A DNA stretch of 64,000 nucleotides. Source: Pseudoleptotrichia goodfellowii (lineage in GTDB: Bacteria; Fusobacteriota; Fusobacteriia; Fusobacteriales; Leptotrichiaceae). The notes below the pieces were generated by a model. It saw only the letters and a program-made list of their open reading frames with translations. It was not told the origin of the DNA and did no database searches. The position numbers and the translations under genes were made by a program. Positions 28,887-50,079 of the stretch are shown here, piece by piece; the stretch's first letter is position 1, and each line of letters begins with the position of its first letter. The stretch is taken from the NCBI RefSeq assembly GCF_007990505.1, contig NZ_AP019822.1:1736001-1800000 (forward strand), in the 5' to 3' direction.

Positions 28887-28978
28887 TACTTTATATATTT
28901 TTACAACTATTTTTTGTGTAAATTTTTCGTCAAAGCTTTTCTATAACTGCTTTTCAGATTTTATTGTAAAATATTAAA

Positions 28979-29070
28979 CGGTACTCCCTTCGTCGGCATT
29001 ATCCGAATCAGGTCTAACGGGTTAAGTTGTTACTACAACTACTCTCAGCAATAAGCTCCCCGGTATTCCG
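28979..29070 (-). promoter_or_regulatory. TPP riboswitch (THI element)
   Basis: On the minus strand the conserved aptamer blocks appear in order: CGGGGAGC, GCTGAGAG, a variable stem-loop (GTTGTAGTAACAAC), ACCTGATTCGGATAATGCCG and GAAGGGAGT. The ends pair through CGG/CCG and TAC/GTA to form P1. Thiamine pyrophosphate binding should lower expression of the downstream uptake genes. Confidence 0.95.
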
Positions 29071-29089
29071 ATTTTCTTTTGTTAATAAT

Positions 29090-29134: not shown

Positions 29135-29162
29135 TTGACAATTTTATAATTTATGCTATAAT
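29135..29162 (+). promoter_or_regulatory. Promoter P1 of small-RNA/peptide locus 1
   Basis: TTGACA (29135-29140), 16 bases, then TATAAT (29157-29162) with TG before the -10 (TGCTATAAT): a full-consensus promoter. It would start RNA at G29169. The same layout (16-base spacer, extended -10, RNA starting GUAA) occurs at locus 2. Confidence 0.85.
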
Positions 29163-29168
29163 AATTAT

Positions 29169-29250
29169 GTAATTCCTGAAGGATTGCACTTATTAGTGAT
29201 AAATTAAAATTGGGATAAAAAAGGCTGGACTTGTTTCAGCCTTTTTTATA
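29169..29250 (+). ncRNA. Small RNA 1, putative antitoxin RNA
   Basis: The predicted transcript of about 80 nt starts GTAATTCC and ends at a strong terminator, AAAAAAGGCTG (29217-29227) paired with CAGCCTTTTTT (29237-29247). A small 5' stem-loop TCC-tgaa-GGA follows the start. ATTGGG (29209-29214) is the exact complement of the loop of the peptide mRNA (CCCAAT, 29267-29272). ATAAATTA (29199-29206) complements TAATTTAT (29277-29284). 29189-29196 complements CTGGTAAG (29287-29294) with two G-U pairs, reaching the first bases of the Shine-Dalgarno. It contains no convincing reading frame. A role as antisense repressor is inference. Confidence 0.7.
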
Positions 29251-29254
29251 TAAT
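29226..29254 (+). promoter_or_regulatory. Promoter P2 of locus 1, nested in the small-RNA terminator
   Basis: TGGACT (29226-29231) lies 17 bases from TATAAT (29249-29254). The -35 box covers the top of the terminator hairpin and the T-tract is the spacer. RNA would begin near A29261, so the mRNA opens with the stem-loop AGGTTA-cccaa-TAACCT (29261-29277). Confidence 0.65.
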
Positions 29255-29304
29255 TAAATTAGGTTACCCAATAACCTAATTTATTTCTGGTAAGGAGGTA
29301 TACG

Positions 29305-29364
29305 ATGCGTATATTATTTTTTGTATTAGTGTTGTTTTTACTGATACAAAGATTTTCATACTAA
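29305..29364 (+). CDS. 19-residue hydrophobic peptide, putative type I toxin 1
   Basis: ATG at 29305 follows AAGGAGG (29292-29298) with ideal spacing. The frame encodes MRILFFVLVLFLLIQRFSY and ends in TAA. One basic residue, a 12-residue hydrophobic stretch and a polar tail fit a single membrane-spanning peptide. In length and layout it resembles the Ibs/ShoB class of type I toxins, but homology is not claimed. The 5' leader of about 44 nt carries a stem-loop whose loop is complementary to the small RNA made upstream. A weak hairpin AGCC-tttcgg-GGCT with a short T-run follows at 29375-29390. A second locus at 49.8-50.1 kb has the same organisation. Confidence 0.75.
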   Translation: MRILFFVLVLFLLIQRFSY

Positions 29365-49711: not shown

Positions 49712-49855
49712 TTTGATTTTCCCCTTTTTTCCGTTATGATATTATTATACCACTTTTTAGCGGAAATTTATACTGTTTTTACCATTTTCTATCTTGATTT
49801 ATTTCGTTTTGCATTTATTTTTTATATTATACCCCTAAAGGTGAGGAAATTAAAA

Positions 49856-49915
49856 TTAGAGTAGGAAATACTGTATTATGAAAAATAATACAACAATCCA
49901 AATCAATAATTTCAT
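49856..49915 (-). CDS. 19-residue hydrophobic peptide, putative type I toxin 2
   Basis: The ATG at 49915 follows AGGAGGG (49919-49925). The frame encodes MKLLIWIVVLFFIIQYFLL and stops at TAA, the same length as the peptide of locus 1. Both have a basic residue at position 2, a hydrophobic core and Gln at position 15. The mRNA leader starts with a stem-loop GTAGTTT-cacca-AAACTAC (49957-49939). Downstream, ACC-tttagg-GGT (49842-49831) lies in a conserved CCTCA..CCTTT.GGGG block shared with locus 1. The leader is complementary to the small RNA encoded just upstream. Toxicity is inferred from the layout. Confidence 0.75.
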   Translation of the reverse strand: MKLLIWIVVLFFIIQYFLL

Positions 49916-49962
49916 AATCCCTCCTATAAAATGAAATTGTAGTTTTGGTGAAACTACGACTA

Positions 49963-49991
49963 ATTATAACAAAAAAGGCTGCATAATTCCA
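49963..49991 (-). promoter_or_regulatory. Promoter P2 of locus 2, nested in the small-RNA terminator
   Basis: TGGAAT (49986-49991) lies 17 bases from TATAAT (49963-49968) on the minus strand. As at locus 1, the -35 lies in the terminator hairpin and the T-tract is the spacer. The mRNA would start at about 49957. Confidence 0.65.
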
Positions 49992-50045
49992 GCCTTTTTA
50001 GCACCAAATTTAATTTCATTTTATAATTTCCCTTAAGGGATTTAC
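49971..50045 (-). ncRNA. Small RNA 2, putative antitoxin RNA
   Basis: The predicted transcript of about 75 nt starts GTAAATCC, with a short 5' stem-loop TCCC-ttaa-GGGA, and ends at AAAAAGGCTG paired with CAGCCTTTTT. TTTGGTG (50008-50002) is the exact complement of CACCAAA (49950-49944), the loop of the peptide mRNA. TATAAAATGAAATT (50025-50012) is the exact complement of 14 bases (49938-49925) that end at the first base of the Shine-Dalgarno. The two pairing blocks are separated by 3 and 5 unpaired bases, against 2 and 4 at locus 1. Confidence 0.72.
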
Positions 50046-50051
50046 AAATTT

Positions 50052-50079
50052 ATTATATCACAATTCAGAAAAAAGTCAA
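50052..50079 (-). promoter_or_regulatory. Promoter P1 of small-RNA/peptide locus 2
   Basis: TTGACT (50074-50079), 16 bases, then TATAAT (50052-50057) with TG before it (TGATATAAT), on the minus strand. It is back to back with the uvrB promoter, which begins 2 bases away on the other strand. Confidence 0.85.

Follow-up and report, generated by a model that had tools for sequence, protein, structure and literature searches.

What is encoded near uvrB in Pseudoleptotrichia goodfellowii, on the minus strand of a 64,000-nucleotide stretch of contig NZ_AP019822.1 (positions 1,736,001 to 1,800,000; hereafter the window), where a promoter (P1), a small RNA of ∼75 nucleotides (nt) with its terminator, a second promoter (P2), a 5′ hairpin, a Shine-Dalgarno sequence (SD) and a 19-amino acid (aa) open reading frame (ORF) follow one another between positions 50079 and 49831? 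This order, first described in a sequence-only reading of the window, was confirmed base for base, and the same block order is present, as that reading had stated, at a second site on the plus strand (locus 1, 29135–29364). We consider the uvrB-side locus likely to be a same-strand, tandem type I toxin-antitoxin cassette from a previously unrecorded family, whose orthogonal predicted RNA antitoxins would block ribosome access.

Two segments of the small RNA are complementary to the leader of the downstream message. Block A (UUUGGUG, 50008–50002) pairs with CACCAAA in the hairpin loop region (49950–49944) over 7 base pairs (bp), and block B (UAUAAAAUGAAAUU, 50025–50012) pairs with AAUUUCAUUUUAUA (49938–49925) over 14 perfect bp, its helix reaching the first base of the SD, both as initially read; a G-U pair to the next SD base extends block B. 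When every position on both strands of the window was scanned, no other perfect inverted repeat of 14 bp or more turned up at comparable spacing (this one was seen once per strand). The duplex energy was −27.9 kcal/mol, compared with −14.8 ± 3.2 kcal/mol for dinucleotide-shuffled sequences (z = −4.1), and none of 500 shuffles was as low. Pairing is weaker at locus 1, again in line with the earlier description, with a longest Watson-Crick (WC) run of 8 at the SD and 6 at the loop (z = −2.4).

Cassettes with an 18–21-aa peptide were found 33 times in 18 Leptotrichiaceae genomes from six genera, and cassette relatives across Fusobacteria number about 45 in all. When each RNA of the 33 loci was paired with each leader, cognate duplexes averaged −26.7 kcal/mol and non-cognate duplexes −14.3 kcal/mol. 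After the loci had been grouped by similarity into 18 clusters, the cognate was the best partner in 17 of them, both by row and by column, and 0 of 100,000 random RNA-leader assignments reached the observed pairing sum. Block B was also analyzed as an anchored 15-bp helix in 27 distinct loci: 94.3% of cells were paired (54.4% when shuffled), 151 cells had changed on both sides (54 when shuffled), and the covariation score was 0.954, compared with 0.227 ± 0.025 when shuffled and 0.11–0.21 when slid, with the caveat that picking the anchored blocks by best duplex tilts this test towards pairing, a bias of which the cognate/non-cognate tests are free. A single pair of loci illustrates the pattern: L133 and L137 encode an identical peptide (MVDFIAIFILFVIIYYSLNR), yet 7 of their 15 target positions are different, and the RNA matches all seven changes. 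The loop block coevolves separately, forming at least 6 WC bp in 27 of the 33 loci when the loop is fixed by folding (0 of 100,000 permutations as good); the unanchored version of this test was weak (6.9 vs 5.4 WC bp), whereas the loop-anchored version was decisive.

Base-pairing and coevolution of the RNA with its leader are well supported by these comparisons of sequence. The compensatory change between RNA and target that was originally proposed from two loci extends to the 33 Leptotrichiaceae loci, and the accompanying prediction that each RNA controls only its own peptide agrees with the five-by-five pairing-energy matrix of P. goodfellowii (hereafter the host), in which the diagonal is best throughout. 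A comparison of orthologues had been suggested as the check on covariation. The uvrB intergenic region of a sister species with a readable contig (G002) contains no cassette, and because of this the test rested on paralogues and loci elsewhere, over which covariation was found.

The predicted folds are compatible with pairing between separate molecules. The small RNA, which starts at ∼50045 with GUAAAUCC, comprises a 5′ hairpin (UCCC/GGGA, 50040–50029), an open middle and a terminator (GGCUG...CAGCC-U6, 49999–49971), and its fold leaves blocks A and B both single-stranded. Among relatives, P1 has an exact TATAAT in 26 of 32 cases and a −35 element matching at least 4 of 6 positions, likewise in 26 of 32, with a spacer of mostly 16 nt; the 5′ hairpin of the message was found in all 33 Leptotrichiaceae leaders. 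In the predicted host mRNA fold (z = −2.66) a UUCCUC segment of the 3′ untranslated region (3′-UTR) sequesters the SD by pairing, and the block B target is open. A CCUC-containing anti-SD is found in the 3′-UTR across the family, its flanks tracking each SD (0 of 100,000 permutations as good), as in host locus 3, where SD and anti-SD are GGAGGGAAU and AUUCCCUC; the uvrB-side cassette is among the weaker loci for this pairing. By analogy, this combination of a sequestered SD with an open target on its 5′ side would resemble the standby-site logic of tisB/IstR-1 (PMC4147584).

Read in this way, P1 would produce a short antitoxin RNA, and P2, right after its terminator, a toxin mRNA carrying a hairpin, ∼14 single-stranded nt and an SD held by the 3′-UTR anti-SD. 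The RNA would dock on the hairpin loop through block A and zip onto the SD-adjacent single strand through block B, forming a duplex that would deny ribosomes the standby or initiation site and would probably be marked for RNase III. Upon loss of the RNA, translation would yield the hydrophobic peptide (18–21 aa, or 29 aa in Fusobacterium), which would insert in the membrane. Each locus having its own pairing code, paralogous antitoxins would not be interchangeable.

A weak plasmid match (E 0.02) led to a cassette of the same order on a Fusobacterium varium plasmid (AP017969.1; L199:500–790), which encodes a different, 29-aa peptide (MYIYVNTLSIHGGIAIAFFIIAWWWYKNK). Its relatives occur in nine Fusobacteriales genomes (L200–L213), with several copies per genome on chromosomes and plasmids, and their peptides are tryptophan-rich and 29–30 aa long. 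Over 13 Fusobacterium loci the SD-adjacent block forms 12–16 perfect bp, vs a non-cognate mean of 5.7 and maximum of 12 (0 of 100,000). A genome that carries four such loci, and whose best match has exactly the F. varium plasmid peptide sequence, gives a clean diagonal of 12/15/14/14, vs at most 7 elsewhere in the matrix. These values are counts of SD-anchored runs, RNAduplex being uninformative for about half of the loci owing to competing long complementary stretches.

Some observations weigh against the toxin-antitoxin interpretation. P2 is not evident in the Fusobacterium loci. Two of the 33 Leptotrichiaceae loci (L128 and L155) show no pairing to their own neighbour despite intact-looking cassettes, and the L155 RNA finds better partners among the leaders of other loci (predicted duplex −24.5 kcal/mol with the best of them, −11.5 kcal/mol with its own); both are possibly chimeras or decaying copies. 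The ratio of nonsynonymous to synonymous polymorphism (pN/pS) is 0.86 in a two-member peptide group (host loci 4 and 5) with few changes. No Pfam, NCBIfam or PADLOC toxin profile scored above its curated cut-off, a weak test for peptides this short, and the status of the peptide as a toxin, which we infer, therefore rests on analogy. Transcription, toxicity and repression, like RNase III cleavage and the standby mechanism, are likewise inferred from sequence.

The first of these points bears on a cis-attenuator, in which RNA segment and leader would belong to one P1 transcript, the read-through mRNA would fold onto its own SD, and some signal would control read-through. Such an arrangement would suit the shared strand of RNA and toxin in all Leptotrichiaceae and Fusobacterium loci, their common order, and a span of 93–112 nt in nearly all of them. 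It would also suit the Fusobacterium loci, where the U-run is short and complementarity runs past the terminator (read by eye); since P2 is not evident there either, part of Fusobacterium regulation may occur in cis on the P1 read-through transcript. As an account of the family, however, it is unlikely: TATAAT directly follows the terminator in 6 of 6 Leptotrichiaceae loci picked by peptide/SD pattern alone, the predicted RNA fold keeps both blocks open for pairing in trans, and at host locus 3 (L002) a 1.36-kb insertion sequence (IS) of the IS91 family parts the RNA gene from the toxin with pairing fully kept, although this insertion is probably recent, because the copy is 99.6% identical to another. 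Tentatively, and with the odds somewhat against it, the two groups may represent a phylum-wide modular chassis, in which one tandem RNA/leader design would serve unrelated peptides (several types of 18–21 aa in Leptotrichiaceae and the 29-aa tryptophan-rich one in Fusobacterium) with mutually blind codes and would combine action in trans, action in cis by P1 read-through and the 3′-UTR anti-SD layer.

The peptide itself raises a second alternative, of similarly low probability, namely that it is a small regulatory membrane protein under small-RNA control and not a toxin. Short membrane peptides can act as regulators, which counts in favour of this explanation, as does the dependence of toxin status on analogy. 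The Leptotrichiaceae peptides are hydrophobic (grand average of hydropathy, GRAVY, 0.6–2.6), and pN/pS in the larger peptide groups is 0.31–0.56 (IQ group 0.49, MVDF group 0.31), showing in silico purifying selection on the peptide. Three loci (L136, L142, and L147) have lost the toxin with P1, RNA and terminator intact, and a fourth (L204) has a frameshifted toxin, so the antitoxin RNA seems to outlive its partner. This retention of the RNA, together with multiple copies, patchy occurrence, the empty uvrB site of the sister species and plasmid-borne relatives, is typical of toxin-antitoxin systems and argues against a purely regulatory peptide.

The sequence-only reading had called the matched changes hard to explain otherwise, which was too strong, as template switching during replication can also maintain inverted repeats (PMC8794818). 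Such quasipalindrome repair produces multi-base compensatory changes (PMC8794818) and the arms here lie ∼100 nt apart, but it is very improbable that repair, and not selection for RNA pairing, has kept the complementarity, given that the loop block and the SD-adjacent block are distinct, stay in the same order and are separated by sequence that is not complementary, that every locus ties the block positions to its SD and hairpin loop, and that promoters, terminator, conserved peptide and anti-SD would be left unexplained; repair may act together with selection. Some G-U intermediates are seen (L133/L135).

How do the cassettes compare with known systems? The Leptotrichiaceae and Fusobacterium peptides are within the type I toxin range (small, usually hydrophobic, <60 aa), and the small RNA shows complementarity to the predicted toxin mRNA (14 + 7 bp here, with coevolution over 33 + 13 loci). 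As to separate transcripts for RNA and toxin, P1, terminator and P2 are predicted in Leptotrichiaceae, but P2 is not obvious in Fusobacterium. One close likeness in design is to tisB/istR-1, shoB/ohsC, zor/orz and dinQ/agrB of Escherichia coli, in which the small RNA is likewise the product of an adjacent gene, pairing is limited to a stretch of the 5′-UTR, the toxin is small and hydrophobic and the mRNA is structured; tisB has been documented to be controlled by blocking of a standby site (PMC4147584). Pairs of this type are divergent genes whose pairing site is distant from the initiation site, on its upstream side (PMC4147584), whereas the cassettes described here are tandem on one strand and pair at a hairpin loop and along a stretch up to the first SD base, and no sequence similarity was found. 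Ibs/Sib of E. coli likewise involve very short hydrophobic peptides, multiple copies (five in MG1655) and a covered ribosome-binding region, but Sib is antisense to the whole ibs reading frame (PMC4147584), whereas here the RNA has a separate upstream gene on the same strand and pairs through two short blocks. The tandem order of RNA gene, terminator and toxin on one strand recalls type III ToxIN, reported from Fusobacteria (PMC4147584); the type III RNA, however, is built from repeats and has a ribonuclease protein as its binding partner, whereas these cassettes have no repeats and no RNase, and combine a 19-aa hydrophobic peptide with RNA-RNA complementarity.

According to a 2025 paper (PMC12390103), no type I loci had been known outside Proteobacteria, Firmicutes and Tenericutes until msoT1/msoA1 was described in the cyanobacterium Microcystis. 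That system resembles the present one in lying outside the classical phyla (PMC12390103) but is cyanobacterial, and no relation to it was found, none having been tested for. Our literature survey turned up no type I locus for Leptotrichia and none clearly for Fusobacteria, with partial coverage that leaves room for a prior listing. Rfam covariance models gave one unrelated sub-threshold match in 20 relatives and, in the window, only the thiamine pyrophosphate (TPP) riboswitch described below. The phylum, the tandem same-strand layout and the pairing through two blocks that stops on the SD are new relative to the literature surveyed. If the interpretation is correct, type I toxin-antitoxin pairs extend to Fusobacteriota, bacteria of the human mouth and gut. 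Dozens of rewritten but matched loci would form a natural set of orthogonal small RNA-target pairs, on which the evolution of RNA-RNA specificity and the number of bases that set it could be tested, and the cassette would serve in practice as a signature by which to look for small toxins that escape protein searches.

Table 1. Coordinates of the features of the uvrB-side cassette and of locus 1 in the window.
Feature	Position	Strand	Description	Basis
P1 promoter (small RNA)	50052..50079	−	−35 TTGACT 50079–50074, 16-nt spacer, −10 TATAAT 50057–50052	Sequence
Small RNA (predicted antitoxin)	49971..50045	−	∼75 nt	Sequence, fold
Block B of RNA	50012..50025	−	UAUAAAAUGAAAUU; complementary to 14 nt 5′ of toxin SD	14 perfect bp; covaries over 27 distinct block pairs
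Block A of RNA	50002..50008	−	UUUGGUG; complementary to mRNA 5′ hairpin loop	7 bp; anchored loop test across family
P2 −10 of toxin mRNA	49963..49968	−	TATAAT with extended −10 TGT	Sequence; adjoins terminator
5′ hairpin of toxin mRNA	49939..49957	−	GUAGUUU-CACCA-AAACUAC	Fold; loop pairs with block A
Target block 5′ of SD	49925..49938	−	AAUUUCAUUUUAUA	Unpaired in predicted mRNA fold; covaries with block B
Shine-Dalgarno	49920..49925	−	AGGAGG	Sequence
19-aa hydrophobic peptide (predicted toxin)	49856..49915	−	MKLLIWIVVLFFIIQYFLL	ORF; GRAVY 2.43
3′-UTR anti-SD	49843..49848	−	UUCCUC	Pairs with SD in mRNA fold; family-wide SD/3′-UTR covariation
Terminator-like hairpin of toxin mRNA	49831..49842	−		Sequence, fold
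Locus 1 P1	29135..29162	+	TTGACA-16-TATAAT	
Locus 1 small RNA with terminator	29169..29247	+		
Locus 1 P2 −10	29249..29254	+		
Locus 1 19-aa peptide	29305..29364	+	MRILFFVLVLFLLIQRFSY	ORF

The relatives were collected by several searches. The peptide pattern recovered three host loci, addition of the P2/SD pattern contributed two loci from a single sister species and one from a further relative, and the RNA-start pattern gave two further loci; its extra matches L057, L060, L061, and L062 appear to be coding sequence. A terminator plus P2 pattern matched ∼56 places in Leptotrichiaceae, vs 0 for a reversed control, and about 20 of the matches are ordinary terminators ahead of unrelated genes. 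A protein search with the 19-aa peptide recovered host locus 3, and its matches in other genomes were random or inside longer genes. Phage records yielded weak AT-rich matches only, and viral contigs yielded chance matches only, apart from the host's own provirus copy.

In total the host genome carries five cassettes: the two in the window, two with an 18-aa peptide (L168 and L169) and the IS-split one. The IS91-family element of the latter (L002:82–1445; host G000:C1 ∼894237–895600) sits precisely at the junction of RNA terminator and toxin −10, has Y2_Tnp and Zn_Tnp_IS91 domains with the transposase frame split into two ORFs, and occurs in the genome in about six nearly identical copies. Host locus 5 (MLKIAVVLIFLFISYNLF) is also found, without differences in the part that was compared, on the minus strand of a viral-classed contig (L190, IMGVR_UViG_2506520045_000001); one or more of the cassettes may therefore lie inside or beside a provirus. 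The TPP riboswitch (Rfam RF00059, 64.1 bits) is located at 28968–29072 on the minus strand of the window, ∼60 nt from locus 1.
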